Assembly (NCBI RefSeq): GCF_000287675.1
Contig: NZ_ALJL01000009.1
Location: 1 to 63,099 of the forward strand
From: Lachnoanaerobaculum sp. ICM7
Lineage (GTDB): Bacteria > Bacillota > Clostridia > Lachnospirales > Lachnospiraceae
Direction: 5' to 3'
DNA length: 63,099 nt
Shown here: piece by piece, positions 724-59,279 of the stretch
Layout: every line of letters begins with the position of its first letter
How positions within the stretch are numbered: position 1 is the stretch's first letter
Position numbers and translations under genes: made by a program
The notes under the pieces: generated by a model
The model's input: only the letters and a program-made list of their open reading frames with translations
Database searches by the model: none
Told to the model about the DNA's origin: nothing

Positions 724-822
724 TGTATATGGTAGCTACTGAAAGATTTGCTACCCTTTTGAAAAATGGAATACATGAATATGTATAAAAATGCATACAT
801 TATATATAATAGGATATTTTTC

Positions 823-871
823 TTGACAATATAATATTAGGTGCTATACTTAAATAGTAATGATTCTTATT
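823..871 (+). promoter_or_regulatory. Sigma-A promoter with possible Per/Fur box before perR
   Basis: A -35 TTGACA (823-828) and a -10 TATACT (845-850) are spaced by 16 bases. Just downstream, AATGATTCTTATT (859-871) is an imperfect AT-rich palindrome in the place where a PerR or Fur dimer would block transcription. The promoter is clear. The operator role is inferred from its position and its resemblance to the AT-rich per-box type. Confidence 0.7.
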
Positions 872-888
872 TTTAGAAAGGGATATAC

Positions 889-1305
889 ATGAAGGATCTA
901 AAATACAGTAGACAAAGGGAGGCTATCTTGGACAATTTGAAGTCTAGAGTCGATCATCCTACAGCTGATATGCTCTTTCAGTCACTACGAAAAGATGATC
1001 CTAAGATTAGCTTAGGTACTGTTTATCGAAATCTTGGCTTGCTCGCCGAGCTTGGTCGTATAAACAAGATTTCCGCTCAAAACGGAATCGAAAGGTATGA
1101 TTATAATACCGATGAACATTATCATTTTTCATGTAAGGCATGTTCAAAGCTCATTGACTTGCCGGCCGATATCGCAAAAGATTTAAATGACAAGGCAGTG
1201 CATGATGATATTGGAGTGGTAGAAAATCATTCACTTATTTTTTATGGCTATTGTAGGGAATGCTATCAAAAAATGATTTATATGGATTCAAAAAAGGCTG
1301 TTTAG
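889..1305 (+). CDS. perR: Fur-family peroxide-stress repressor (PerR-like)
   Basis: A 138-residue Fur-superfamily metal-dependent repressor with an N-terminal winged helix (about 1-75) and a C-terminal dimerisation domain. Two CxxC pairs, C82/C85 and C122/C125, form the structural zinc site. The regulatory-metal ligands expected for PerR are present: H23 in the DNA-binding domain, D71, and the H77/H79 pair. I prefer PerR over Fur or Zur because the next gene is a rubrerythrin, a classic PerR target in clostridia. AAAGGG precedes the ATG. Its promoter carries a possible autoregulatory box. Metal and peroxide specificity are inferred, not shown. Confidence 0.85.
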   Translation: MKDLKYSRQREAILDNLKSRVDHPTADMLFQSLRKDDPKISLGTVYRNLGLLAELGRINKISAQNGIERYDYNTDEHYHFSCKACSKLIDLPADIAKDLNDKAVHDDIGVVENHSLIFYGYCRECYQKMIYMDSKKAV

Positions 1306-1332
1306 CCTTTGAATCTTTTAAGTCGGCATTTC

Positions 1333-1356
1333 ATATCAATATAGTAATTTTGATAT
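1333..1356 (+). promoter_or_regulatory. Inverted repeat in the rubrerythrin leader
   Basis: ATATCAA (1333-1339) is repeated inverted as TTGATAT (1350-1356), ending only a few bases before the AGGAGG ribosome binding site of the rubrerythrin gene. It could be a repressor site or an RNA hairpin. No separate promoter is obvious between perR and this repeat, so co-transcription with perR is possible. Confidence 0.4.
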
Positions 1357-1375
1357 TTATTAGGAGGAAATTTTT

Positions 1376-1912
1376 ATGTCAAAGTACGCAGGAACAAAAA
1401 CAGAGAAGAACTTAATGGATGCATTTGCAGGTGAGTCACAGGCTAGAAATAAGTATACATATTACGCTTCAGTAGCTAAGAAGGCAGGATATGAGCAGAT
1501 GGCAGCTCTTTACCTTGAGACAGCAGAGCAGGAGAAAGAGCATGCAAAGATGTGGTTTAAGGAGTTCCACGGAATCGGAACACCTGAGGAGAACCTTGTA
1601 GATGCGGCAGCAGGTGAGAACTTTGAGTGGACAGATATGTATGCTCGTATGGCAAGAGAAGCAAGAGAAGAAGGATTTGAGGCTCTTGCAAAGAAGTTTG
1701 AGCTTGTAGCAAAGGTTGAGGCAAGCCACGAGAAGAGATATCTTCAGCTTCTTGAGCATTTAAAGAATGATGGAACTTTCAAGGGAGACGCTCCTCTTGG
1801 ATGGAAGTGCCGTAACTGTGGATATATCCATGAGGGTGCTGATGCTCCTACAGTATGTCCATGTTGTGCTCATCCACAGGCATACTTTGAGAGAATGACT
1901 GTAAACTATTAA
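1376..1912 (+). CDS. rbr: Rubrerythrin
   Basis: A 178-residue cytosolic peroxide-reducing diiron protein. Residues 1-135 form a ferritin-like four-helix bundle with the paired iron motifs (E20; E53xxH56; E115xxH118). Residues 143-170 form a rubredoxin-like domain with C145xxC148 and C161xxC164 that passes electrons to the diiron site. Length and domain order match standard rubrerythrins of anaerobes. TAGGAGGAAA precedes the start. It lies 70 bases after perR and is the expected target of that repressor. A strong terminator follows. Confidence 0.97.
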   Translation: MSKYAGTKTEKNLMDAFAGESQARNKYTYYASVAKKAGYEQMAALYLETAEQEKEHAKMWFKEFHGIGTPEENLVDAAAGENFEWTDMYARMAREAREEGFEALAKKFELVAKVEASHEKRYLQLLEHLKNDGTFKGDAPLGWKCRNCGYIHEGADAPTVCPCCAHPQAYFERMTVNY

Positions 1913-1968
1913 TATTTAGATTTACTAAACATCTTCACAATAGTGTAAAATCTTAAATTAGGTATATA

Positions 1969-1998
1969 CTCCCCGACAGCTCAATCGGGGAGCTTTTT
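1969..1998 (+). terminator. Terminator after rubrerythrin
   Basis: CTCCCCGA (1969-1976) pairs perfectly with TCGGGGAG (1985-1992), followed by CTTTTT. Confidence 0.92.
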
Positions 1999-2126
1999 AA
2001 TATTTGCTGCAGCTATAGTCAAATGCAGTGAAGATGTGATATAATAATATCTATTGTTTTATGAAAGAAAGCAAGCAAGGTAAAATTGCTGTTATTAAAA
2101 CGAAATAAAATATTTTGGAGGTCAAC

Positions 2127-2825
2127 ATGGCAGAAGAGACAATGAAGGATTTTGAGAAGGAGCTTGAAGAATCATATAAAACTATGGATACAAAAGAAGA
2201 TCCGGATGCAGGAAAGTGGGATGTCTTTGAAAAGATGTTAGCGGAGAAGACAGTTGCAAAGGTTAAGATTACAGAGGTTGTTAAGGGTGGATGTATCGCA
2301 TTCTTAGAGGAAGTAAGAGCATTTATTCCTGCAAGTCAGTTATCAACACAGTATGTAGAGAACCTTGATGAGTTCCTCGGTAAGAGCCTTGAGGTTGTTG
2401 TAATTACATCAGAGCCTGCTAAGAAGAAACTTGTTCTCAGTCACAGAGCAATTGAGAAAGAAGAGGCTAAGAAGGAGAGACAGGCTAAGCTTGACAGCGT
2501 TAAGGTTGGCGATGTTCTTGAGGGTAAGGTTGATTCAATCAAGGATTACGGCGCTTTCATCGATCTTGGAGACGGAATCTCAGGATTGCTTCATGTATCA
2601 CAGATTTCAAATCAGAGAGTAAAGAACCCTGCTGCAGTACTAAAAGAGGGTGAGACTGTAAAGGTTAAAGTAACAGGTATTAAAGATGGAAAGATTTCAC
2701 TTTCAAAGAAAGCACTTGAGGAGAATGTAGAGCCGAAGGATCCTTCAAAGGGCTTTAAATATGTAGAAAAGGGAGTTGCATCTACATCTTTAGCAGGATT
2801 ATTAAAGGATATTAAATTAGACTAA
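2127..2825 (+). CDS. S1-domain RNA-binding protein
   Basis: A 232-residue cytosolic protein with two S1 (OB-fold) RNA-binding domains, roughly residues 35-105 and 120-195. The second is the more canonical, with GKVxSIKDYGAFID and GLLHVSQIS. It resembles short RpsA-like proteins of Firmicutes that bind mRNA or ribosomes, but it is far shorter than full ribosomal protein S1. I place the start at ATG 2127 because GGAGG (2117-2121) sits five bases upstream; an earlier in-frame TTG overlaps that site. It lies 12 bases before the aminopeptidase gene, likely in one transcript. A TATAAT at 2040-2045 is a possible -10 element. Confidence 0.85.
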   Translation: MAEETMKDFEKELEESYKTMDTKEDPDAGKWDVFEKMLAEKTVAKVKITEVVKGGCIAFLEEVRAFIPASQLSTQYVENLDEFLGKSLEVVVITSEPAKKKLVLSHRAIEKEEAKKERQAKLDSVKVGDVLEGKVDSIKDYGAFIDLGDGISGLLHVSQISNQRVKNPAAVLKEGETVKVKVTGIKDGKISLSKKALEENVEPKDPSKGFKYVEKGVASTSLAGLLKDIKLD

Positions 2826-2837
2826 AGGAGTGTTCGT

Positions 2838-4232
2838 ATGGCAGAAAGTAAAGCAAAAGCTCTGCAAAAAGAACTTTCATTTGAATATCCTCATATAGCA
2901 AAAGAATCTCCTGAGCAAATTTCAAAAGCTCAGGAGTTTGCTGAAGGATATAAGAAATTTTTAGACAAGTCAAAGACCGAGAGAGAAGTGGTAAAAGAAG
3001 CTGTCAGCTTACTTGAGGCAAACGGATATACAGTTTTTGACCCTAAAAAGAGCTATAAAGCCGGGGATAAGGTATATAAAGTAAACAGAAAAAAAGCAAT
3101 ACTTGCATCTACAATAGGTAGTGAGCCTATCACTGAAGGTTTAAGGATTAACGGAGCACATATAGATTCTCCAAGACTTGATCTCAGACCTAATCCGCTC
3201 TATGAAAAGAGTGAGATATCATATTTTAAGACTCATTACTATGGTGGAATAAGAAAGTATCAGTGGGCAACCATACCGCTTTCAATGCATGGTGTTATAT
3301 TTAGAAAAGACGGCAGTTTTGTTGAGATAAATCTTGGTGAAAAAGAAGAGGATCCGGTATTTTATATAAGTGATCTGCTTCCTCATCTTTCAAGCAAACA
3401 AGATCAAAGAAAACTGTCGGAAGGTATCAAAGGTGAGGAATTAAATATTTTCCTTGGAACATTGCCGTTTGATGATACCGATGATGTAAAAGAGGCTGTA
3501 AAGCTTAAGACACTTGAAATATTAAATAATATGTATGGTGTTACAGAGAGAGATTTTGCAAGAGCGGAGATAGAGTTTGTCCCTGCAACAAAGGCAAGAG
3601 ATATAGGTCTTGATCGTTCACTTGTAGGAGGATACGGTCATGATGACAGAGTCTGTGCTTATCCTGCGCTTATAGCGGAGATTGAAGCAAAGAATCCGAA
3701 GTATACAACACTTACAATACTTGCAGACAAAGAGGAGATCGGTTCAACAGGAAATACAGGACTTCATTCTCACTTTGTGTATGATTATATTGAGTATTTG
3801 TCACAGATCTTCGGTGCTGATGTAAAAGAAGTATGTGAAAAATCATCATGCCTTTCATCAGATGTAAATGCCGCATTTGATCCTACTTTTCCTGATGTGT
3901 TTGAGCCTAACAACTCATCATATCTGAACAGAGGTTGTGTACTTACAAAGTATACAGGTTCAAGAGGAAAGTATTCTTCATCAGATGCAAGTGCAGAGTT
4001 TATGAATAAAGTTATATCAATAATGGAAGAAAACAATGTACATTGGCAGATAGGAGAATTGGGCGCCCTTGACGTTGGTGGTGGCGGTACCATTGCTCAG
4101 TATGTCGCAATGATGAATATAGATGTAGTAGATTTGGGAGTTCCCGTAATCTCTATGCATTCACCATATGAGGTGATATCAAAATTAGATTTATATAATA
4201 CATATCTTGCATTTAAGGCATTTTATTTATAA
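2838..4232 (+). CDS. M18-family aminopeptidase (aspartyl-type)
   Basis: A 464-residue cytosolic dinuclear-zinc exopeptidase of the M18 family, which removes N-terminal, often acidic, residues from peptides. Family signatures seen are GAHIDSPRLDLRPNPL for the first metal histidine, GHDDRVCAYPAL, DKEEIGSTGNTG for the catalytic and ligand acidic residues, and a C-terminal SMHSPYEV with the last metal histidine. The length is normal for the family. AAAGGAG precedes ATG 2838, 12 bases after the S1-domain gene. Substrate preference cannot be read from the sequence. Confidence 0.93.
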   Translation: MAESKAKALQKELSFEYPHIAKESPEQISKAQEFAEGYKKFLDKSKTEREVVKEAVSLLEANGYTVFDPKKSYKAGDKVYKVNRKKAILASTIGSEPITEGLRINGAHIDSPRLDLRPNPLYEKSEISYFKTHYYGGIRKYQWATIPLSMHGVIFRKDGSFVEINLGEKEEDPVFYISDLLPHLSSKQDQRKLSEGIKGEELNIFLGTLPFDDTDDVKEAVKLKTLEILNNMYGVTERDFARAEIEFVPATKARDIGLDRSLVGGYGHDDRVCAYPALIAEIEAKNPKYTTLTILADKEEIGSTGNTGLHSHFVYDYIEYLSQIFGADVKEVCEKSSCLSSDVNAAFDPTFPDVFEPNNSSYLNRGCVLTKYTGSRGKYSSSDASAEFMNKVISIMEENNVHWQIGELGALDVGGGGTIAQYVAMMNIDVVDLGVPVISMHSPYEVISKLDLYNTYLAFKAFYL

Positions 4233-49819: not shown

Positions 49820-50089
49820 ATGAACAGAGGAAAACGTCCGAAAATAAAGATAACAATTACTGACAGAAGAGGTAAGATGGGATGTCATAGAGGACACCAT
49901 GTAGGTGAAGTATTCGATTATGATGAGGACAGGGGTAAGATCTGTCCTATGGCGATGCACTGTGCCTTTCCATATATAGACATTTTAAGATATGGAGGAA
50001 GTTTACCGGGACAGCCTGAGGGATGTGCTGAATTTTGCTGTTCAGATGCGGATGTTATTTTGGTTTTTAAGGCTGAGATGGAAAAATAA
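49820..50089 (+). CDS. TIGR04076 family small protein
   Basis: An 89-residue cysteine-containing protein (C22, and C42, C48 with later C69, C73, C74). The pattern of MGCHRGHHVGEVFDY and a CPMAMHCAFPYI segment is typical of TIGR04076, small proteins of unknown function in anaerobes that may bind a metal or FeS centre. TGGAGGATTTG precedes the ATG. It lies 18 bases after the HAD gene. Confidence 0.75.
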   Translation: MNRGKRPKIKITITDRRGKMGCHRGHHVGEVFDYDEDRGKICPMAMHCAFPYIDILRYGGSLPGQPEGCAEFCCSDADVILVFKAEMEK

Positions 50090-50100
50090 AGGGAGTGAGT

Positions 50101-51090
50101 ATGAATAAAAAGCCTATACTTGAAATTATTGCAGACCGTTTGAGACAAACCGAATTTAAAGATGATGATATAATTACTTTGGGAAAGGATTTTTCACTAC
50201 CAAGTGATGAAAAAGGTCTTAGATATGTCGACGGTGCAAAGGATGGTATATGTGCATATCATATGGGGGCGGCAGAGATCACAAAGAAAGATATAGAAGA
50301 GATAAATAAGGTTATCACACTTGCAAATAAAGGTGATTATGATCAGGCTGATTCTGTACTTGAAAAGCTTTGTGAACGTATAAGATTGGTGAATTTTATA
50401 GATGAACTTCAAGATTGTATACTTGATCGAAAAGATGAAATAGAAGATAAATTTTATGTGTATTCTTTGCATTTGATGACTCAGTCTGCAAATATTGAAT
50501 GTGTTAAAGTTGGAATGATGATTCAGGAATTGTTTACACAAAGTGATGAAGTAAAGGGTATGGTAAGGACTCTTGGACTTTCGGATGAGTTTACATTGTA
50601 TTCGGTTTTTATAATGCGAAACTGGGAGAATGGAAATACTGAGATCATGAATATTGCAAAGTCTGTAAACGGATGGGGTAAAGTGCATGCAGTTCACTAT
50701 ATTGAGCCTGATACAGAAGAGATAAGACAGTGGCTTTTGACAGATGCAGTGTCAAATGATGTTATGCCGGCTTATCCGGGATGGGATTGCTATAAAAAGG
50801 CAGATGTGGGATCTGTAATTAAAAAAGATAAGCTTAGTTATAAAGAACTCGAAGGAGTTTTATCTATTGTAGATGCAATGCTTGATGAAGGACCGGTACT
50901 GGGTATTTCAAACATTGAAGATCCTAAGGAGGTACTATTGAATGTATTAAATCATGCGATAAAACATGCTCCTTTAAGTGTCAAGGATTGTAAGATTATA
51001 AGTAATATTTTAGATTGGCAAAAAGAAAATCTTGGAGATACAGAGATAGAATCAATTTCAAATAAAATTTTGGAAACCGGTGAGAAATAA
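50101..51090 (+). CDS. Unknown protein, mainly helical
   Basis: A 329-residue cytosolic protein I do not recognise. There is no signal peptide, membrane helix or nucleotide motif. Evenly spaced hydrophobic/charged helices suggest a repeat-type helical fold. A central segment (VNGWGKVHAVHYIEPDTEEI) resembles helical repeat proteins in this phylum, but I cannot name the family. AAAGGGAGTGAGT precedes ATG 50101, 11 bases after the previous gene. Confidence 0.7.
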   Translation: MNKKPILEIIADRLRQTEFKDDDIITLGKDFSLPSDEKGLRYVDGAKDGICAYHMGAAEITKKDIEEINKVITLANKGDYDQADSVLEKLCERIRLVNFIDELQDCILDRKDEIEDKFYVYSLHLMTQSANIECVKVGMMIQELFTQSDEVKGMVRTLGLSDEFTLYSVFIMRNWENGNTEIMNIAKSVNGWGKVHAVHYIEPDTEEIRQWLLTDAVSNDVMPAYPGWDCYKKADVGSVIKKDKLSYKELEGVLSIVDAMLDEGPVLGISNIEDPKEVLLNVLNHAIKHAPLSVKDCKIISNILDWQKENLGDTEIESISNKILETGEK

Positions 51091-51114
51091 AATATACTAT
51101 TAGAAAGGTAAATA

Positions 51115-51753
51115 ATGCTGGGTAAGACACATTTTTCTGTAGGGATGGCGGCAGGACTTGCACTCTGCAGACCACAGAGTATAACAATGCTTGTTGCAGG
51201 AACAGCTTTAGCAGGATTTGGAGGAATTATCAGTGATATAGATGTAGGTACATCCGGTGTCTACAATAAGGTGGATCGTATTATAGGATTGGCCATTGGA
51301 ACTGTTACAGGAATAGTAATTGCAGATGCTGTTTTTCACGTTGGCATATATGACAGACTGATGGCGGACAGCAATATTGCCCGAATTATTACCGGAGTAT
51401 TAGCGTTTCTGTGTATATGTATTTTTGGAATGAAACAGCCACATAGATCATTTATGCACTCAATATTGGCATTACTTGGTCTCAGCTTTTTTGTATATAT
51501 GATTTTCCCTGATGTGGCACCGTATTTTAGTATAGGTTTTGCTTCACATATGGTTATTGATGCACTAAATGGTAAGCGTGAGAAACTTTTTTGGCCTGTA
51601 GGCAAAGGATTTGCATTACGAATGTGCTCATCAGACGGATTAGTAAATAATTTGCTTTTTCACATATCTAATTTACTGGTATTGATATTAATACTGACTT
51701 CACGGCCTGTACTTTTTATTCTGATTAATATAAGCGGTTTATTACAAAGATAA
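51115..51753 (+). CDS. YdjM-type membrane-bound metal-dependent hydrolase
   Basis: A 212-residue membrane protein of the YdjM/DUF457 family, with GKTHFSVGMAAGLAL at the start, the acidic motif GGIISDIDVGTSG, the histidine motif QPHRSFMHSILAL, and about four hydrophobic helices. In other bacteria YdjM-like genes belong to the SOS response; no LexA box is visible here. AGAAAGGTAA precedes the ATG. A terminator ends this gene row. Confidence 0.88.
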   Translation: MLGKTHFSVGMAAGLALCRPQSITMLVAGTALAGFGGIISDIDVGTSGVYNKVDRIIGLAIGTVTGIVIADAVFHVGIYDRLMADSNIARIITGVLAFLCICIFGMKQPHRSFMHSILALLGLSFFVYMIFPDVAPYFSIGFASHMVIDALNGKREKLFWPVGKGFALRMCSSDGLVNNLLFHISNLLVLILILTSRPVLFILINISGLLQR

Positions 51754-51770
51754 AATATATTTCTCTAATT

Positions 51771-51796
51771 CCCTGTTTTAAAATACAGGGGATTTT
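51771..51796 (+). terminator. Terminator after the YdjM-type gene
   Basis: CCCTGT (51771-51776) pairs with ACAGGG (51785-51790), followed by GATTTTTT. Confidence 0.75.
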
Positions 51797-51812
51797 TTAT
51801 ACTGTAAGTATA

Positions 51813-51842
51813 TTGATGGTTACCTCGTGTATTTTATATAAT
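51813..51842 (+). promoter_or_regulatory. Probable promoter of the ATP-grasp/ADP-ribosylglycohydrolase unit
   Basis: A -35-like TTGATG (51813-51818) and a -10 TATAAT (51837-51842) are spaced by 18 bases, directly after a terminator and 27 bases before the first gene of the cluster. Confidence 0.6.
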
Positions 51843-51868
51843 ATAAAATAGTATAAAAAGGTGGTAGC

Positions 51869-52654
51869 ATGGGAAGAGTTTATTTAAAGACAAAATTTGA
51901 CAATGAAATGAAAATGGAAATTCCTCACAGTGTAAATATTGCAAATGCAATGTATGGATTTAGAGATATGGGAGCTGAGATAATTCCCTATCATAATATT
52001 GATGAAATTTATGATAGGGTAAATAGAGAAGATATAGTGCTTGATTATATAGGACAATGTAACAGTATATTCTCAAAATTTGGTGTTGAACCAAGTATAC
52101 CGGATTATCCGGATGTTCTGAAGCCATTTCTTGGAAGGAAGATTTGGAAGGATACTATAAACAGTATATCAAGAAGCGAAGAAAAATGGTCAGGGGGTTA
52201 TTTTGTTAAGCCTATAAAAAGTAAGGTTTTTACCGGTAAGATAATAGGTAGCATATCAGATCTTGTAGGCTGTGGAAATCATTCAGAAGATTATGAGGTA
52301 CTTGTAAGTGAGCCTTTAGATATATTTGCGGAGTGGAGATGCTTTATACTCTATGATGAGATAGTTGATGTCAGACCATATGGACTATTACTTGATAGAA
52401 ACAGAAAAAGCTATAAGTTTCATTATGACTCAAATGTTTTGGATTCTATGCTGGAGGCATTTGTCAAATGGGATGAAAGACCTATATCCTGTAGTATGGA
52501 CATATGTGTTACAAAAGATGGGCAAACATTGTTGGTAGAGATAAATGATGCCTATGCACTGGGATGCTATGGCTTGGCAAGTATTTTCTATGCTAAGCTT
52601 ATCTCAGCAAGATGGAGCGAACTTTTAGGCGTAAAGGATGAATACCGTTTTTAA
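51869..52654 (+). CDS. ATP-grasp domain protein (DUF4343-like), short form
   Basis: A 261-residue cytosolic protein whose C-terminal two thirds fit an ATP-grasp ligase: lysine in GYFVKPIKSKVFTG, EVLVSEPLDIFAEWRCFI for the adenine/acid region, and VEINDAYALG for the magnesium-binding end. It resembles DUF4343-type ATP-grasp proteins. Such enzymes join a carboxylate to an amine or thiol through an acyl phosphate; the substrates are unknown. AAGGTGGTAGC precedes the ATG. It begins a cluster with an ADP-ribosylglycohydrolase, a second ATP-grasp protein and a radical SAM enzyme. Confidence 0.8.
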   Translation: MGRVYLKTKFDNEMKMEIPHSVNIANAMYGFRDMGAEIIPYHNIDEIYDRVNREDIVLDYIGQCNSIFSKFGVEPSIPDYPDVLKPFLGRKIWKDTINSISRSEEKWSGGYFVKPIKSKVFTGKIIGSISDLVGCGNHSEDYEVLVSEPLDIFAEWRCFILYDEIVDVRPYGLLLDRNRKSYKFHYDSNVLDSMLEAFVKWDERPISCSMDICVTKDGQTLLVEINDAYALGCYGLASIFYAKLISARWSELLGVKDEYRF

Positions 52655-52701
52655 GATAGATATGTAATATATTGTTGTTATCAGGAGTAGGAGGTGAATT
52701 A

Positions 52702-53640
52702 ATGGATAATATTTGGAAATCGGGAATATATGGATTGGTAGTTGGAGATGCAATGGGAGTACCGGTGGAGTTTACTTCCGGAGAAGATAGAAAGATTGAT
52801 CCTGTAACCGATATGATAGGGTATGGCACATACAACCAGCCTGAGGGTACTTGGTCGGATGACAGCAGCATGGCACTTGCAACACTGGTCAGCATTAGAG
52901 ATAAGGATGAAATTGATTATAAAGATATAATGGAGAGATTCCGTGATTGGTGTATGTATGGAGCTTATACGCCATTTGATGAAGTCTTTGATATAGGAAT
53001 AGCTACTTCAAGAGCCATTATGAAATATAGTAATGGTGCCAAACCATTGGAATCGGGTGGTAAAACTGAGTGGGATAATGGTAACGGATCACTTATGAGA
53101 ATTTTACCTGTATGTCTGTATATATTTGAACAGCAAAGAGATATGAAACTGTCTGATGATGAATCGATAGATATTATACATAATTGTTCAGCTCTGACGC
53201 ATGCACATTTAAGAAGTAAGATAGCATGTGGCATATATTATTTTTTAGTAAAAGCTATTTTAGATAAAGACGGAGAATTAATAGAACGACTGCAGCAGGG
53301 AGTAGATAATGCATTTAAGTATTATGGCGAAAGTACTGAGAGTGAGCTTGACAATTATAACAGACTTATTTCACTTTCAGAATTTAAAGATACTCCTGAA
53401 AATCAGATAAAAAGTACAGGTTATGTAGTGTACACACTTGAAGCTGCGATATGGTGTTTGGTAAATTCATCTTCTTATGAGGAAGTTATTTTAAAAGCTG
53501 TAAATCTGGGTGATGATACAGATACGGTGGCAGCCATAACAGGTGGACTTGCGGGACTTTATTATGGCTATGACAATATACCTGACAAATGGAAATCCAA
53601 GCTACAGAAAAGGGAGTGGATAGAGAGTTTGTTAAATTGA
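52702..53640 (+). CDS. ADP-ribosylglycohydrolase (ARH/DraG family)
   Basis: A 312-residue helical, dinuclear-magnesium hydrolase that removes ADP-ribose from proteins, nucleic acids or small molecules. Motifs are GDAMGVPVEF, WSDDSSMALA (metal-binding acids near residue 50) and GDDTDTVAAITGGLAGLYYG near the C-terminus. The length is standard. ATG 52702 has GGAGGTGAAT upstream. It lies 47 bases after the first ATP-grasp gene. A partner ADP-ribosyltransferase is not seen in the window, so the substrate may be made elsewhere. Confidence 0.93.
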   Translation: MDNIWKSGIYGLVVGDAMGVPVEFTSGEDRKIDPVTDMIGYGTYNQPEGTWSDDSSMALATLVSIRDKDEIDYKDIMERFRDWCMYGAYTPFDEVFDIGIATSRAIMKYSNGAKPLESGGKTEWDNGNGSLMRILPVCLYIFEQQRDMKLSDDESIDIIHNCSALTHAHLRSKIACGIYYFLVKAILDKDGELIERLQQGVDNAFKYYGESTESELDNYNRLISLSEFKDTPENQIKSTGYVVYTLEAAIWCLVNSSSYEEVILKAVNLGDDTDTVAAITGGLAGLYYGYDNIPDKWKSKLQKREWIESLLN

Positions 53641-53662
53641 TAAAAGTTAATAGTGTTATAAG

Positions 53663-53692
53663 AAAGCTGGCATTTTTAATGTACAGCTTTTT
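53663..53692 (+). terminator. Weak hairpin after the ADP-ribosylglycohydrolase gene
   Basis: AAAGCTG (53663-53669) pairs with CAGCTTT (53684-53690) and is followed by TT and G. It may partly end transcription; a TATACT at 53696-53701 could be a -10 for the next genes. Confidence 0.45.
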
Positions 53693-53737
53693 GTTTATAC
53701 TAAAGATAATAAAAATAGGGTTTAATAGGGAGGATAT

Positions 53738-55267
53738 ATGAGGTTAGAGAATTTTGAAATTGCTAAGAGCATAAATTTTATTTTTTGTAGTCATCCACTA
53801 AATAAAAAGAATGTAGATGAGAATTATATGGAAGAATATCAGGCAACAGGTCTAGACCATGCTTGTGCATTATTTAGTTATGAAGATTTAGTAAATGGGA
53901 AACTGTCTCTCTATGGTGAGGATATTGAAGGTTTAACTATATACAGAGGTTGGATGATGCCGGCACATATGTATGAGCTTTTTTATAATTTGCTTCTGGG
54001 AAAAGGAATACAGCTGATAAACTCACCGAAAGAGTATGCAAAGTATCATCTTTTGCCGGGATGGTATAGTGATTTTGAAGGAGCTACACCATTTAGTATA
54101 TGGAATGAGTCAAGGGATATAAGAGCTGCTTTAGAACTTACAGAAGGACTTGAAGGGGCATTTGTAGTTAAAGACTATGTAAAGAGCAGAAAGCATGAGT
54201 GGCATGATGCCTGCTTTATAAAAGATATTAGTGATAAAGAAGATACTTTTAGGGTAATCAATAATTTTATTAACCGTCAAGGTAGCAATCTTGAAGGTGG
54301 AATTGTACTTCGAAAGTTTGAAAGTCTGAAATCTATAGGATATCATAAAGACAGTGGTATGCCGATTTCAGAAGAATACAGGGTGTTTGTGTTTAAGGGA
54401 GAAATATTGATTTCAGATAATTACTGGAGTGAGAATGAAGAAGTAAATATATCGGAAGATGAATATATATGGATTGAATCAATATCAGGTAAGATAGAAA
54501 GTAATTTTGTGACTATAGATTTGGCAAGGAAAACTGACGGAAAGCTTATAATAATGGAAATGGGAGATGGCCAGGTATCAGGATTGCAACAAATAGATGC
54601 ATATGAGTTTTACAGAGCTTTTCAAAATCAGGGGAAAGGAAATATATATTCCATAGAATATGTCAAGGAAGTAATAAAAGAGCTGGTTAAAATGGATTTT
54701 GAGCCTGAACTTAGTTTGTGTTTTAGAGGAAATGAGTCAGAATATATGATTATAGGGTATGCTGATCATGTGTCATTTCAAAGATGTGGTTATTATGACG
54801 GAAGTGGTGAAATAGACTATAAAACATTGGATGAATTATTTGAATCAGAACTTATAGACGGTATATGTCTGAAAAGGGATTGGAATAAAATAGTAGATAT
54901 TTGGTGTTCACCATCTATGATAGACTTTGAGTTCAAAAAAGATAAATATAAGAAAATGATAGAACAAAATAATCAAGAGTGGGGAGATAGGAGACCAATT
55001 TTTAAAATTGTTAAAAAAGAAATTGATAAATGGAATCCATACGGTCTTTTACCGGAGTTTCCTAATGATGAATTTGATGGTGAGAGCACAAGGATTGCAC
55101 TGGATATGGATTGGAATTCTACAACAGATAAAATAGCTAAACTTATTTCCAATGAATTTACATTTTCATTTGGAGATGAGTATATGTTTTCATTAAAATG
55201 TTGCATACAGACAGCAAAAAATATAAGAGATAGTATGGATAGATTTATAGAAAATAAGAGAAAATAA
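53738..55267 (+). CDS. ATP-grasp domain protein with C-terminal extension
   Basis: A 509-residue protein. The first 300 residues fit an ATP-grasp ligase of the DUF4343 type: an N-terminal pre-ATP-grasp domain with YRGWMMPAHMYEL, a lysine in GAFVVKDYVKSRKHEW, GGIVLRKFE, EEYRVFVFKGEIL, and the magnesium end LIIMEMGDGQVSGL. The C-terminal 200 residues are unassigned. It is related in plan to the ATP-grasp protein at 51.9 kb but twice as long. AGGGAGGATAT precedes the ATG. One base after its stop begins the four-Cys protein, so these genes are tightly coupled. Confidence 0.82.
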   Translation: MRLENFEIAKSINFIFCSHPLNKKNVDENYMEEYQATGLDHACALFSYEDLVNGKLSLYGEDIEGLTIYRGWMMPAHMYELFYNLLLGKGIQLINSPKEYAKYHLLPGWYSDFEGATPFSIWNESRDIRAALELTEGLEGAFVVKDYVKSRKHEWHDACFIKDISDKEDTFRVINNFINRQGSNLEGGIVLRKFESLKSIGYHKDSGMPISEEYRVFVFKGEILISDNYWSENEEVNISEDEYIWIESISGKIESNFVTIDLARKTDGKLIIMEMGDGQVSGLQQIDAYEFYRAFQNQGKGNIYSIEYVKEVIKELVKMDFEPELSLCFRGNESEYMIIGYADHVSFQRCGYYDGSGEIDYKTLDELFESELIDGICLKRDWNKIVDIWCSPSMIDFEFKKDKYKKMIEQNNQEWGDRRPIFKIVKKEIDKWNPYGLLPEFPNDEFDGESTRIALDMDWNSTTDKIAKLISNEFTFSFGDEYMFSLKCCIQTAKNIRDSMDRFIENKRK

Positions 55268-55268
55268 T

Positions 55269-56249
55269 ATGAAAATAGTAATAACAGATAGCGGTATATT
55301 ATGGCATTATGGAAATCCTATATTAAAAAATTATAAGGACTTAGTGTTAGTGGTCTGTCTTCACGGGAGTAAGGTTACAGATGAATATGAGTGCTTTATC
55401 TGTCCGAGAAAATCAGTTGGCCTTGGTATGAGTATGGGGGTTGGCAGTAGAGTTTATAATGATTTAGAAGATGTGGCAGATGAACTTTATGATATGTTAC
55501 AATATGAAGATGATATCATATTTTTAACTGATGGTAATCCGGATAGTTTATATCCATACCATATTATAAAAAACAGAAGGCATCATATGAATATTCACCT
55601 TTGGGCAAGTCCACCCTGGAGTATTGAAGGAAAGGCAAGGATGAAGATTCATAAGGAGATGCTTTCAGATCTGTCAGGTGTAAAATCAATTTGCTATATA
55701 GACACTCAGGAATACTTGAAGAATGACTATAAGAATTTCGGTGCATTTTTAGAAGATGTTCAAAATTACTTTGAGGAGATTTTTCCGATTGTAATGGATG
55801 GTATAAGTAAAGTGGAAAATGAATCATACTTTGATTTGGCATCAAAAACGTATATTCCACTTGGTAAAATATCCGGTGAAGAGGCTATATTAAAAAGTAC
55901 TGAATACCTGTCAGATAAAGATGAGTATACAGATAATACGTATTTAATTGAGGGTATGGTAGATATTCCTGAGTATCAAAGGAGTGACAAATATAAAAAG
56001 GACATAATATACAGACAGGTAGCCAGAATAGATGGAAAGAAAATTTGCAATACACTTCGTGAATACAGATTTAAACTGGCACAGATGAACAGTATAGAAT
56101 TTAATTCTGAGGAGTGCAGCTATGTGGGTGCCTGTGCCGGGACCTGTGAAAAATGTGATGAAGAAGCAGAGTATTTAAGTATGAAGTTATCAGAGATTCC
56201 CAAGGAAAAGCAAAGAATTCCAGATCTTAATCTTGGGGAGGTAGAATAA
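55269..56249 (+). CDS. Unknown protein with C-terminal four-cysteine motif
   Basis: A 326-residue protein of no family I can name. The N-terminal half alternates strands and helices (VITDSGILWHYG, DDIIFLTDGNPDSLYP), as in a Rossmann-like domain. The C-terminal part holds C283, C289, C293 and C296 (CSYVGACAGTCEKC), a spacing suited to an iron-sulfur cluster or zinc. It starts one base after the ATP-grasp gene and its stop overlaps the radical SAM start. It may be a partner, electron donor or substrate-carrier of the radical SAM enzyme. Confidence 0.7.
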   Translation: MKIVITDSGILWHYGNPILKNYKDLVLVVCLHGSKVTDEYECFICPRKSVGLGMSMGVGSRVYNDLEDVADELYDMLQYEDDIIFLTDGNPDSLYPYHIIKNRRHHMNIHLWASPPWSIEGKARMKIHKEMLSDLSGVKSICYIDTQEYLKNDYKNFGAFLEDVQNYFEEIFPIVMDGISKVENESYFDLASKTYIPLGKISGEEAILKSTEYLSDKDEYTDNTYLIEGMVDIPEYQRSDKYKKDIIYRQVARIDGKKICNTLREYRFKLAQMNSIEFNSEECSYVGACAGTCEKCDEEAEYLSMKLSEIPKEKQRIPDLNLGEVE

Positions 56250-56881
56250 TGTTTGGAGATATTTTATCTATTTCAAGACTTAGGATGGGCACAGACGGAA
56301 ACGGAATATCTACGTTGGTAGTGTTTTTTGATTGCCCTCTTTACTGTGAATATTGCATAAATGATTTCTGCCATAAGCTCAAAAAACCGTTTGTTGGAGT
56401 TCAACATGCAGCATTTACCCCTCAGGAGCTGATAGAGATTTTAAAACAGGATGATATTTATTATTTGATGAGTGGAGGAGGTGTTGTCTTTGGAGGAGGT
56501 GAGCCTCTACTGCAATCAAAATATATTCATAAGGTATGCACTATGGTAGACCAAAGATGGGCAAAAAGAATAGAAACTTCACTTAATGTTCCCTGGGATA
56601 ATATAAAACCGGTATTGTATGATATGGATGAATGGATTATTGATATAAAGGATATAAATAGTGATATTTATAAGAGCTATACAAAAACAGACAATAAAAA
56701 TATGATTGAAAATTTGTTGAAGCTTAGAAATAAAGTGTCAAAGGATAAGATTCATATAAGGATTCCCAAGATACCGGGTTACAATACCGCATACGATATT
56801 GAAAAATCTGTAGAATGGATCAGAGAAAATATTGGTGTGGAGCCTGAAGTGTTTTCATACATAAAGACTATAAACCGGTAA
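56249..56881 (+). CDS. Small radical SAM enzyme (PflA-like)
   Basis: A 210-residue radical SAM protein with the cluster motif C29xxxC33xxC36 in FDCPLYCEYC, and the SAM-binding glycine and acid motif VVFGGGEPLLQ. It is about 35 residues shorter than pyruvate formate-lyase activating enzyme and has no ferredoxin insert. No glycyl radical enzyme gene is nearby, so activation of such an enzyme is not supported; modification of a protein or peptide of this cluster is possible. The ATG overlaps the previous stop (TAATG). The last codons are followed by a non-coding region. Confidence 0.88.
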   Translation: MFGDILSISRLRMGTDGNGISTLVVFFDCPLYCEYCINDFCHKLKKPFVGVQHAAFTPQELIEILKQDDIYYLMSGGGVVFGGGEPLLQSKYIHKVCTMVDQRWAKRIETSLNVPWDNIKPVLYDMDEWIIDIKDINSDIYKSYTKTDNKNMIENLLKLRNKVSKDKIHIRIPKIPGYNTAYDIEKSVEWIRENIGVEPEVFSYIKTINR

Positions 56882-56909
56882 TTAAATTGTAAGATTTAGA
56901 GCGATTTTT

Positions 56910-56926
56910 TATACCGCCGGTATAAT
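56910..56926 (+). promoter_or_regulatory. Inverted repeat overlapping a -10-like element
   Basis: TATACC (56910-56915) and GGTATA (56919-56924) form a palindrome around GCC, and TATAAT (56921-56926) overlaps its right arm. It may be an operator-promoter for the small frame at 56999; no good -35 is seen. Confidence 0.4.
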
Positions 56927-56998
56927 GACAAAAGTATTTTACTATGTTATTCTATCAATAAAGAAATTTGGGCAGATTGAGCTCGGAAAGGAAAAGAC

Positions 56999-57151
56999 AT
57001 GAGAACAATGAATCGTTTTGACTATTTAAATATTGAACGCCGTGATTACGCGCTCCTTAGTATGCTGTCTAGGAAGGGCTCTGTTTTAGTGCACTCATTG
57101 GAGATAGGTCAAGTACGAGAAAATTGTTTGTATAATTATAGGCATAGGTAG
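56999..57151 (+). CDS. Small open frame of 50 codons, uncertain
   Basis: An ATG with GGAAAGGAAAAG upstream opens a 50-residue frame (RFDYLNIERRDYALLSML near the start, basic end YNYRHR), ending at TAG 57149-57151. I do not recognise it. It lies between the radical SAM gene and a terminator at 57185, in a 353-base stretch otherwise without genes. It could be a true small protein, a gene remnant, or chance. If real it might belong to the preceding cluster. Confidence 0.35.
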   Translation: MRTMNRFDYLNIERRDYALLSMLSRKGSVLVHSLEIGQVRENCLYNYRHR

Positions 57152-57184
57152 ATACTATGCTGATATTAGATAAATGTTTTTGAG

Positions 57185-57217
57185 ACCGCTTACTCTAAAT
57201 GGGTAGGCGGTTTTTTT
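57185..57217 (+). terminator. Terminator before rtcB
   Basis: ACCGCTTAC (57185-57193) pairs with GTAGGCGGT (57203-57211) with one G-U pair, followed by T residues to 57217. Confidence 0.9.
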
Positions 57218-57234
57218 GATGTAAAGGAGAAGAT

Positions 57235-58449
57235 ATGGATAGAATTGAGATAAAAGGTAGAGTAAATACAGCCGTATGTTATGCAAAGGTTGTAGAGGAT
57301 GAGGCAATAGAGCAAATCAGAAGGATGTGCGACTATATAATAACAGAAGGTTCAAAAATTCGTATAATGCCTGATGTTCATGCCGGAAAGGGATGCACTA
57401 TAGGTACTACAATGACTATACAGGAAAAGGCTGTGCCAAATATAGTCGGAGTAGATATCGGATGCGGAATGTACACGGTAAAACTTGGAAAAGTGGAAAT
57501 AGATTTTGAAAAAGTAGATGAGGCTACTCATTATATTCCATCAGGAATGAATGTATGGGAGGGCAGACAGGAGCACTTTGATTTAACAAAGTTAAACTGC
57601 TTCAGATATTTGAGAGATTCCAGAAGGCTTGAGCGTTCACTTGGTACATTGGGAGGTGGAAATCACTTTATTGAGATTGATGAGGCAAGTGACGGATGCA
57701 AATACTTGATAGTACATTCAGGATCAAGAAATCTTGGAAAGCAGGTTGCACAGTATTATCAGAGATTGGCGGCAAACTTAGATAGAGGGTATGATACTTA
57801 TTTTGAAAAAAGGGATGAGATCATAAGAACTTATAAGGAGCAGGGTAGAAAAAATGAGATTCAGACTGCACTAAAAGCACTTCATTGGAATGTGTATGAG
57901 TCGGAAACAAGCATGCCTGATGATTTATGCTATGTTTCAGGAAAATATTTGGAGGAGTATTTAAATGATGTTGAGACTTGTCAAAACTTTGCGAAAAGAA
58001 ATCGTGAGTTGATGGCGGAAATTATCCTTGAGAGGACAGGGATGAAAAATCTTGAGTCATTCCATACTATACACAACTATATTGATGTGAGTGAGATGAT
58101 TTTACGAAAAGGTGCTATAGCGGCACATAGAGGTGAGAAGGTCTTGATCCCTATAAATATGAGGGATGGAAGTGTTTTGGCGGTTGGAAAGGGCAATCCT
58201 GACTGGAATTATTCAGCACCTCATGGAGCCGGAAGACTTATGTCAAGAACTGCCGCAAAGAATAACTTAAGTTTAGATGAGTACAAAGAGACAATGAAGG
58301 GAATCTATTCCACTTCTATAAATGAAAACACATTGGACGAGGCTCCAATGGCATATAAAAGACTTGAGGATATTATAGATGTGATAAAAGACTCTGTAGA
58401 TATCATCGAGGTAATGAAACCAATTTATAATTTTAAGGCTTCTGAATAG
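57235..58449 (+). CDS. rtcB: RtcB RNA-splicing ligase
   Basis: A 404-residue GTP- and manganese-dependent RNA ligase that joins 2',3'-cyclic phosphate or 3'-phosphate ends to 5'-OH ends, repairing broken tRNA or rRNA. Metal-site motifs are MPDVHAGKGC and GVDIGCGM, then LGGGNHFIEI and HSGSRNLGKQ; the histidine guanylated during catalysis is expected to be H330 in PHGAGRLMSR. The length is normal. AAAGGAGAAG precedes the ATG 17 bases after a terminator. It is grouped with an XRE regulator and a Nudix hydrolase. Confidence 0.96.
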   Translation: MDRIEIKGRVNTAVCYAKVVEDEAIEQIRRMCDYIITEGSKIRIMPDVHAGKGCTIGTTMTIQEKAVPNIVGVDIGCGMYTVKLGKVEIDFEKVDEATHYIPSGMNVWEGRQEHFDLTKLNCFRYLRDSRRLERSLGTLGGGNHFIEIDEASDGCKYLIVHSGSRNLGKQVAQYYQRLAANLDRGYDTYFEKRDEIIRTYKEQGRKNEIQTALKALHWNVYESETSMPDDLCYVSGKYLEEYLNDVETCQNFAKRNRELMAEIILERTGMKNLESFHTIHNYIDVSEMILRKGAIAAHRGEKVLIPINMRDGSVLAVGKGNPDWNYSAPHGAGRLMSRTAAKNNLSLDEYKETMKGIYSTSINENTLDEAPMAYKRLEDIIDVIKDSVDIIEVMKPIYNFKASE

Positions 58450-58469
58450 GAAAGAGTAACTCTTTCCTA
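58447..58469 (+). promoter_or_regulatory. Perfect hairpin at the rtcB stop codon
   Basis: TAGGAAAGAG (58447-58456), which includes the stop codon, pairs perfectly with CTCTTTCCTA (58460-58469) around TAA. There is no T run, so it is more likely an mRNA stability or coupling element than a terminator. Confidence 0.5.
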
Positions 58470-58492
58470 TCCGGAAGCGGAAAGGAAGAGTT

Positions 58493-58741
58493 ATGTTTAT
58501 TTTTCCTACCATAGATTTGGTAGCTACAGGAAAAAATATTGTAAGACTTAGAGAAGAGTCAGGACTTAGTGTGAGAAATTTGCAGGAAATATTTGGTTTT
58601 GCCACCCCACAGGCTATTTACAAATGGCAACATGGAACAGCAATGCCGACTATAGATAATTTGATAGTACTGTCAGCAGTATTTCAGGTTTCTATGGATG
58701 AGATCATCATAGTAGAAAATAATACACAAATAAGTGCATAA
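58493..58741 (+). CDS. XRE-family helix-turn-helix regulator
   Basis: An 82-residue DNA-binding protein made of a single XRE helix-turn-helix (GKNIVRLREESGLSVRNLQEIFG, then TPQAIYKWQHGTAMPTIDNL). The phrase QAIYKWQ is typical of small clostridial regulators. GGAAAGGAAGAG precedes the ATG. It is 44 bases after rtcB and probably co-transcribed; it may regulate rtcB or sense the same stress. Confidence 0.9.
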   Translation: MFIFPTIDLVATGKNIVRLREESGLSVRNLQEIFGFATPQAIYKWQHGTAMPTIDNLIVLSAVFQVSMDEIIIVENNTQISA

Positions 58742-58814
58742 ACCCGTGTATATACCGATTTTAATTGACTGTGTATATGCAAGATATTAGAATAGCTTAT
58801 AAAGAGAGGTATAT

Positions 58815-59279
58815 ATGGGAATTGAAAAATTGAGTAGAAAAACAGAAATAGAGTTAACAAATATGTGCTTAATCTGTGACGGAAGCAAGGTTTTGGTTCA
58901 GGAAAAAGCAGGAACGAATGGTTTGGTATTCCCGGGAGGTCATGTTGAAGAAGATGAGTCACTGCTTGAGTCTGTTATCAGGGAGATGAAAGAGGAGACA
59001 GGACTTACTATTGAAAATCCTATAGCCTGTGGTTTTAAAGATTGGATACAGGAAGACGGAACAAGATATCTGGTACTCTTATATAAGACTGATAAATTTA
59101 GCGGTGAATTAAAGTCATCGGAGGAAGGAAGAGTATTTTGGGTTGACCGGTCAGACTTAGACAGTGTAAACCTTATCTGGAATATGAAGGAGTTATTGGA
59201 GATATTTGATTCTGACAGATACAGTGAGTTCTTCTTTAAAATTAAGAATGGAAAATATAAAGGGGAACTACTTGGATAG
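58815..59279 (+). CDS. Nudix hydrolase (MutT-like)
   Basis: A 154-residue pyrophosphohydrolase of the Nudix superfamily. The Nudix box runs from GGHVEEDESLLESVI to REMKEETGL (about residues 36-58), with the metal-binding glutamates intact. The sequence resembles 8-oxo-dGTP type MutT proteins (MCLICDGSKVLVQEK, FPGG). It cleaves nucleoside diphosphate derivatives; the exact substrate is not known. AGAGAGGTAT precedes the ATG. A terminator follows. Confidence 0.93.
   Translation: MGIEKLSRKTEIELTNMCLICDGSKVLVQEKAGTNGLVFPGGHVEEDESLLESVIREMKEETGLTIENPIACGFKDWIQEDGTRYLVLLYKTDKFSGELKSSEEGRVFWVDRSDLDSVNLIWNMKELLEIFDSDRYSEFFFKIKNGKYKGELLG

Follow-up and report, generated by a model that had tools for sequence, protein, structure and literature searches.

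A five-Cys domain paired with a radical SAM enzyme behind an R2K and ADP-ribosylglycohydrolase operon in Lachnoanaerobaculum

Do five neighbouring genes that could make, attach and remove a modification form one system? The question is raised by positions 51813-57151 of a 63,099-nucleotide stretch of Lachnoanaerobaculum sp. ICM7 (contig NZ_ALJL01000009.1; the whole stretch is called the window here). A sequence-only reading grouped two ATP-grasp proteins, an ADP-ribosylglycohydrolase (ARH), a 'four-Cys' protein and a radical S-adenosylmethionine (SAM) enzyme, and knew of no described system with this set. That statement holds for one half. Two ATP-grasp genes of the R2K.2 and R2K.3 clades with the ARH gene between them are of a known kind, the R2K.2-ARH-R2K.3 arrangement having been described in 2015 (Burroughs, Zhang and Aravind, 2015; PMC4431377). 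The new part of the cluster is the coupled pair at 55269-56881, a protein with a conserved five-Cys domain and a radical SAM enzyme. The pair is apparently undescribed, as no description was found in the open-licence literature.

Pairing of the five-Cys domain with a radical SAM enzyme

The pair is made up of the following features, by position, strand and content.

55269-56249, +, four-Cys protein, whole frame, 326 aa
55269..55883, +, putative divergent FtsZ/tubulin-like domain, about residues 1-205 of the four-Cys protein (hhalign, PDB profile search, alignment)
56013..56246, +, five-Cys domain, about residues 249-326 of the four-Cys protein (two alignments, AlphaFold2)
56249..56881, +, radical SAM partner enzyme, 210 aa, CxxxCxxC present as CPLYCEYC

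Re-checked frames and translations place all frames of the cluster (51869-57151) where they had been reported, and bear out the one-base gap between the R2K.3 and four-Cys genes and the TAATG overlap between the four-Cys and radical SAM genes. We keep 'four-Cys' as a name for the whole protein, although the label undercounts: the conserved domain has five cysteines (C260, C283, C289, C293 and C296), spaced C-x22-C-x5-C-x3-C-x2-C, with an invariant Gly between the third and the fourth.

Relatives were sought in genomes of the family to which the window genome belongs (evenly drawn) and of its phylum, where gene calls are open frames; G numbers below denote genomes and L numbers loci. The 326-aa protein was matched in 14 of 299 family genomes, five times at full length and nine times over the C-terminal ~60 residues only, and in 2 of 398 phylum genomes. 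With a profile of the C-terminal domain (22 sequences), 18 of 397 genomes from the family and 2 of 299 from the phylum had a match, the window's own genome being counted in each. One of the 18, G754, is a weak match with stops and without a radical SAM gene. Its locus, L072 (E 2.4e-4, 26 of 74 positions, two stops), was excluded from the strong loci, and L030-L032 are duplicates of L010, L009 and L011.

At all 26 distinct strong loci, a radical SAM gene of one clade lies beside the five-Cys domain or is fused to it. These comprise 17 family loci (including G000), G001 (with a broken four-Cys gene), G004, G594 and two Lachnospiraceae metagenome-assembled genomes (L012, L013). The others are on a plasmid of Segatella copri (L049), on two contigs of fecal origin (L050, L051) and on an IMG/VR contig (L055), whose five-Cys frame of 49 codons ends at the contig end. 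L050 and L051 were deposited as phage; in our judgement their genes look Bacteroidota-like. The strong loci thus span the window's own family, another family of its phylum, and Bacteroidota. The gap between the two genes is at most 207 bases (L045), and both parts are fused in one protein in G119 (528 aa) and G759 (537 aa). Among viral contigs, one relative was found by the domain profile and none by the full protein or by a five-Cys query from L050; plasmids and phages gave one and two records with relatives.

In a search starting from the enzyme, the window protein was matched in 28 of 210 family genomes at E<=1e-20, and in 12 of them better than 1e-25. Eleven of these 12 stand at five-Cys loci; the twelfth (G130) is truncated to 143 aa, and its 3.4-kb locus contains no five-Cys frame. 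The remaining matches have E values from 1.9e-24 upwards and belong to longer frames (247-325 aa). In a tree, the 26 paired enzymes form one clade (support 99/96) against a narrow outgroup of 11 other radical SAM proteins from five genomes; L136, L133, L138 and L140-L142 were left out of the tree. We regard the four-Cys and radical SAM genes as a unit because they travel together across genera and into another phylum, as the sequence-only reading had asked of its cluster, and are fused in two genomes.

Two loci depart from the simple layout. L051 has three successive five-Cys proteins followed by one radical SAM gene (766-3952). In L052 (8890-10979, from G001) the four-Cys gene is broken by internal stops, and a second five-Cys fragment lies upstream of R2K.2.

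The partner enzyme belongs to the radical SAM superfamily by its CxxxCxxC motif and a Pfam Radical_SAM score of 36.2 bits (cut-off 29.5). Glycyl-radical activases, which abstract hydrogen from glycine, share this motif. They (TIGR02494, PflA) and NrdG2, likewise a radical SAM enzyme with CxxxCxxC, are its best-scoring NCBIfam families, but the window enzyme stays below the curated cut-off in the best 25 of 30 NCBIfam families (123.7 vs 174.35 bits for TIGR02494). Two paired relatives also fall below the TIGR02494 cut-off (147.7 and 111.9 bits). Unlike the activases, the paired enzymes form their separate clade, and no glycyl-radical enzyme was found by Pfam among the 10 proteins scanned at 50095-59276 (the rest of the genome was not searched).

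The five-Cys domain is predicted by AlphaFold2 as a helix, a Cys loop and a helix, the loop being less sure: block means are 72-91 across residues 261-320, except 61 at 281-290. It is the only confident part of the 326-aa protein (mean pLDDT 41), and modelled alone from a single sequence it gave a poor model. The whole protein has no Pfam match at E<=1, and Pfam and NCBIfam gave no convincing family for the 22 members of the domain. Among weak matches, YvyF is the commonest (9 of 22, best E 1.5e-5), followed by ScmE and sulfatase_rSAM (2 of 22 each) and PRK13745 and TIGR04085 (1 of 22 each; best E among these four 0.0011); the single match to TIGR04085, the SPASM model, has E 0.21. A PDB profile search with the domain found nothing convincing. 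The domain probably holds a metal or Fe-S centre.

Variable carriers and the FtsZ-like N-domain

The five-Cys domain is constant and its fused partner varies. On the Bacteroidota plasmid it is followed by a hydrophobic stretch (by eye) and TonB_C; in seven family genomes it precedes a lipobox-like stretch and an acidic tail, and in G265 it stands behind a zinc-ribbon-like start (all by eye). In G594 a Tubulin/FtsZ GTPase domain precedes it, above the Pfam cut-off (E 9.8e-24); the same protein matches TIGR00065 with E 2.4e-42, yet reaches 145.5 of the required 295.2 bits. A further kind of partner is the window N-domain, which likewise precedes the five-Cys domain. The motif [LIVM]xG[DE][VIAMTP], picked after inspecting the tails, occurs 15 times in the seven acidic ones, against a shuffle mean of 0.98, and none of 5000 shuffles reaches 15. 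Two of the seven tails lack the motif, and six Bacteroidota-type tails hold six in all (without a shuffle comparison).

The window N-domain was compared by profile. Searching the PDB with a profile built from 12 window-type proteins brought up 22 distinct chains at E<=10. The top one is an S-layer protein (E 0.44), and the other 21 are FtsZ chains (E 0.55-2.5) that share one register. With hhalign against eight FtsZ proteins from these genomes, 216 columns aligned in order (score 44.2, E 2.8e-5, probability 73.9). Controls scored lower: 16.5 for the reversed profile, 20.7 for the best of 200 column shuffles, and at most 16.7 for seven other families taken from these loci. The score was 48.3 (140 columns) without the most divergent member and 40.9 (138 columns) without three divergent members. 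L044 is omitted from the displayed alignment (hhalign was run with and without it), and L106 and L107 are not in the FtsZ alignment.

On this basis we take the N-domain to be a divergent homologue of the FtsZ/tubulin superfamily. The T4 loop GGGTGTG is gone in the 11 window-type rows shown and near-intact, as GLGGNTGAG, in G594; a T7-like [YF]FDxAS stretch is partly retained in window-type proteins. The window protein has probably lost GTP hydrolysis. The superfamily includes FtsZl1 and FtsZl2 (Makarova and Koonin, 2010; PMC2875224), from which the window form differs in its lost GTP-binding loop. In the text of PMC2875224, no words start with 'radical' or 'ATP-grasp'.

The R2K and ARH genes, a proposed mechanism and its rivals

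Upstream of the pair lie the following features.

51869..52654, +, R2K.2-clade ATP-grasp protein, 261 aa, Pfam R2K_2 E 3.7e-39, ExN motif present as EIND
52702..53640, +, ADP-ribosylglycohydrolase (ARH), 312 aa, Pfam ADP_ribosyl_GH E 1.1e-72
53738-55267, +, R2K.3 ATP-grasp protein, whole frame, 509 aa
53738..54640, +, R2K.3-clade ATP-grasp domain, residues 1-301, Pfam R2K_3 E 8.2e-32, ExGD present as EMGD
54641..55267, +, C-terminal extension of the R2K.3 protein, sub-threshold DUF1871 match only (E 0.093)

All three families score above their curated Pfam cut-offs: R2K_2 134.4 bits (26.2), ADP_ribosyl_GH 245.6 (26.2) and R2K_3 111.1 (26.3). The ARH ends at 53640, and its ATG start at 52702 (312 aa) was preferred over a TTG at 52672 (322 aa). 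It contains the acidic stretches WSDDSS and GDDTDT, spotted by eye, which we take to be its family's motifs. In both R2K proteins, lysines follow the first Lys, as judged by eye, and are candidates for the second conserved Lys/Arg that marks the clade in its RAGNYA loop. From a limited literature search, we know of no ligase-activity test of R2K.2 or R2K.3. The C-terminal extension of R2K.3 is present in G000, G004 and G005 and missing from three other Lachnoanaerobaculum genomes; in G021 a 97-aa frame of its own holds part of it.

The EIND and EMGD motifs fit the motif rules for the R2K clades in PMC4431377, where the R2K.2-ARH-R2K.3 'sandwich' operon of firmicutes is set out (Burroughs, Zhang and Aravind, 2015). 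The window has the same three families in the same order, with the ARH gene between the two R2K genes, and differs from that operon in the five-Cys/radical SAM pair coupled behind R2K.3. In that paper Lachnoanaerobaculum saburreum is among the species aligned, its authors saw no further linked genes, and the operon's target proteins are termed elusive. CDC123 (R2K.1) belongs to the same ATP-grasp clade, with a different family and different partners; it has been proposed to be a ligase (PMC4431377) and is reported to act as an ATPase in eIF2 assembly (PMC12860950).

The cluster runs from a terminator-like site (51767-51794) through R2K.2, ARH and R2K.3, then across the one-base gap and the TAATG overlap to the radical SAM gene, an arrangement that resembles a single transcription unit. 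The 'one promoter' reported upstream comes down to a consensus match at 51813 (10/12), of a kind as frequent in shuffled sequence. Across the region, promoter matches (29 vs a shuffle mean of 28.4) and terminator matches (2 vs 1.7) do not exceed chance.

Is R2K.3 tied to the pair? The R2K_3 model, which also matches R2K.2 proteins (as it does in the window), has a match in 11 of 299 family genomes but in four of the five with the full-length FtsZ-like form (p 5e-6). With the window's genus excluded, two of three such genomes have a match (p 0.0024). Fisher tests of FtsZ-like against other five-Cys forms give 0.005, and 0.045 without the window's genus. The FtsZ-like form occurs in eight lineages, namely six genera and the genomes of L012 and L013. 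R2K.3 is adjacent to it or near it in three of the eight (Lachnoanaerobaculum, G212 and G156); in G156 an RlaP gene and another frame lie between R2K.3 and the pair, and in the genome of L013 R2K.3 is on a different contig. G005 has both R2K genes and ARH without the pair. In G001 the broken four-Cys gene, the radical SAM gene and R2K.2 are at one place and R2K.3 is elsewhere.

The link of R2K.3 to the FtsZ-like form is therefore real but optional, since R2K_3 matches are enriched with that form, yet R2K.3 also occurs without the pair. The expectation that the ATP-grasp, four-Cys and radical SAM genes would travel together across genera held for the latter two, with R2K.3 joining them in those three lineages only. 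Given the separations in G005 and G001, the set as a whole does not travel as a single system.

We propose that the five-Cys domain, probably bearing a metal or Fe-S centre, docks a carrier protein onto its dedicated radical SAM enzyme. This enzyme, a relative of glycyl-radical activases, would then make a radical-based change on the carrier, either in the five-Cys domain or in the fused part. We arrive at a docking or substrate domain because the pair is dedicated, the two parts are fused twice, and a small Cys domain stays constant as its cargo changes. In the window the carrier would be the FtsZ/tubulin-like protein. R2K.3 may optionally add an amino acid or peptide to it, in the manner of tubulin-tyrosine ligases, which are also ATP-grasp enzymes and act on tubulin tails; ARH would take off ADP-ribose. 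A cycle in which a modification is made, attached and removed is hypothetical. What the data show directly is the gene order, the coupling and pairing, two fusions, the profile homology to FtsZ and the separability of the parts; the carrier's role as substrate, the metal centre, the chemistry and any effect of the R2K and ARH enzymes on the carrier are inferences from these. Taken as a whole, this model is tentative, and we hold it to be nearly as probable as its negation.

Several observations weigh against it. The cysteines are not all strict, as G156 has Tyr at the first loop Cys and G785 lacks the helix Cys, and the domain could carry electrons or sense redox state instead. Glycine repeats, as seen in the lipobox form, do not characterise the FtsZ-like form. 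Pfam gives nothing convincing for the 12 window-type rows, Tubulin/FtsZ being absent at E<=1, a single-sequence PDB search with one member found no FtsZ (best match a SAVED-domain protein, E 0.021), and the FtsZ-like part is poorly modelled within the low overall pLDDT given above. On the R2K side, an R2K_3 match is missing from four of the eight FtsZ-like lineages (G086, G759, G785 and the genome of L012), and a five-Cys hit is lacking in 7 of the 11 genomes that have one. None of nine genomes with other five-Cys forms has an R2K_3 match, which is compatible with chance (P 0.71); in one of the nine, G119, a very divergent FtsZ-like N-domain is possible.

For the cluster, the main rival is that two independent modules stand side by side, an R2K.2-ARH-R2K.3 conflict module and the five-Cys/radical SAM unit, sharing expression only. 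We consider this a serious possibility. It accounts for the R2K/ARH set without the pair in G005, for R2K.3 standing apart in G001, beside an AbiLi-like ATPase, and for most five-Cys/radical SAM loci viewed having no R2K gene nearby. Against it stand the proximity of R2K.3 to the pair in three lineages, the excess over chance of R2K_3 matches in genomes with the FtsZ-like form and the one-base gap in the window. The AbiLi-like ATPases beside R2K.3 in G001 and G205 also fit an anti-phage defence system, as do the resemblance of R2K.2 to the phage protein family phrog_7313 (E 1.1e-22) and the NADAR, TIR and RlaP genes that each adjoin one pair. PADLOC, by contrast, matches just one of the five cluster proteins, the radical SAM enzyme, and that weakly (pVip, E 9.1e-6); we think a defence role unlikely.

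For the domain, the main rival is an auxiliary role: the five-Cys domain would be an Fe-S or electron-donor part of the radical SAM enzyme, SPASM-like in function, and the substrate something else. The two fusions to the enzyme agree with this, as do the weak ScmE, sulfatase_rSAM, PRK13745 and TIGR04085 matches and the resemblance of CxxxxxCxGTC to the SPASM motif CxxxxxCxGGC. Fusion to TonB_C, FtsZ and lipoprotein-like parts would be odd for an electron donor, however, as would three five-Cys proteins before a single enzyme in L051, and the commonest weak match is YvyF, not SPASM. We judge the auxiliary role to be improbable, about on a par with defence. A biosynthetic cluster for a modified peptide, of the ribosomally synthesized and post-translationally modified peptide (RiPP) or graspetide kind, is very unlikely. 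Graspetide loci can combine ATP-grasp and radical SAM enzymes according to the part of PMC8939145 covered here, but R2K is not named in it, the sole candidate precursor (56999-57151) lacks coding constraint, and no exporter or protease family was found by Pfam among the 10 neighbouring proteins scanned.

With this cluster, the R2K/ARH operon of 2015 gains a concrete candidate target, a tubulin-family protein. The finding also adds a protein domain without a convincing Pfam or NCBIfam family (22 members) and its accompanying radical SAM clade, in two bacterial phyla; the genes are currently annotated as, for example, 'energy transducer TonB' and 'radical SAM protein'. A bolder picture, which we consider speculative and quite improbable, is a new radical SAM system of anaerobic bacteria in which one five-Cys domain would present FtsZ/tubulin-like, TonB-like and lipoprotein-like proteins for glycine-centred radical modification (at LxG[DE][VI] repeats within the tails of lipoprotein-like carriers). 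Two ATP-grasp ligases would in addition tag the Lachnoanaerobaculum FtsZ-like carrier, as a bacterial counterpart of tubulin tail modification.

The RNA element before rtcB and other neighbours

One further frame had been counted as a possible small substrate of the cluster.

56999-57151, +, 50-codon frame, non-coding by substitution pattern

This frame is not a protein but lies in a non-coding RNA element before rtcB. Between the window and L. saburreum, its changes fall 7/10/10 by codon position, with 14 nonsynonymous and 6 synonymous codons; rtcB, compared in the same pair, shows 31/23/152. Of 200 shuffles, 198 fold less well than the RNA at 56999 (z -2.95). The element, ~250 nt long within 56925-57214, has a promoter-like site at 56925-56953 and, immediately ahead of rtcB, a terminator-like site at 57182-57214. 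It is conserved alongside rtcB in five genomes, and in G001 it stays with rtcB, with R2K.2 and the four-Cys and radical SAM genes elsewhere. Judged by conservation and predicted folding, it is a conserved structured RNA upstream of rtcB. The fold itself is a prediction: of 84 predicted pairs, only 4 have a compensatory change, and covariation counts slightly against the fold (term 0.76). In Rfam the RNA scores below every gathering score, the best being trpB (35.2 of 59 bits, E 0.071). The element may regulate RtcB or serve as a substrate of that ligase.

RtcB was considered as a constant part of the operon and rejected, as rtcB comes with a promoter-like site, an RNA element and a terminator-like site that belong to it alone and is apart from the pair in G001. 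No RtcB match was found in the 21 kb around the pair in L010. Behind rtcB in the window lies a helix-turn-helix (HTH) protein (58493-58741), with relatives beside the pair in G156 (L037) and near R2K.3 in G205 (L094); the HTH gene near R2K.3 in G001 is also related to it. R2K.3 stands near an AbiLi-like ATPase and an HTH gene in two genera, at L028 (7232-10586) and L094 (7369-10997), with PADLOC AbiLi E values of 1.3e-27 and 6.7e-27.

Other genes adjoin the pair at single loci. On the virus-labelled contig L055 (4724-5999), the radical SAM gene shares its first bases with a NADAR gene (Pfam E 8.8e-55), and at L038 (4346-6538) the pair is followed after 56 bases by a gene with a TIR domain (Pfam TIR_2 E 1.1e-21). 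Transposase-like frames, identified by eye in two relatives, lie beside or inside the locus at L010 (4001-7108 and 11699-12989) and L029 (8505-9577), and may explain its patchy gene content. Upstream of the cluster, the window encodes an 89-aa cysteine-rich protein (49820-50089) with 98 and 100% identity in two relatives.

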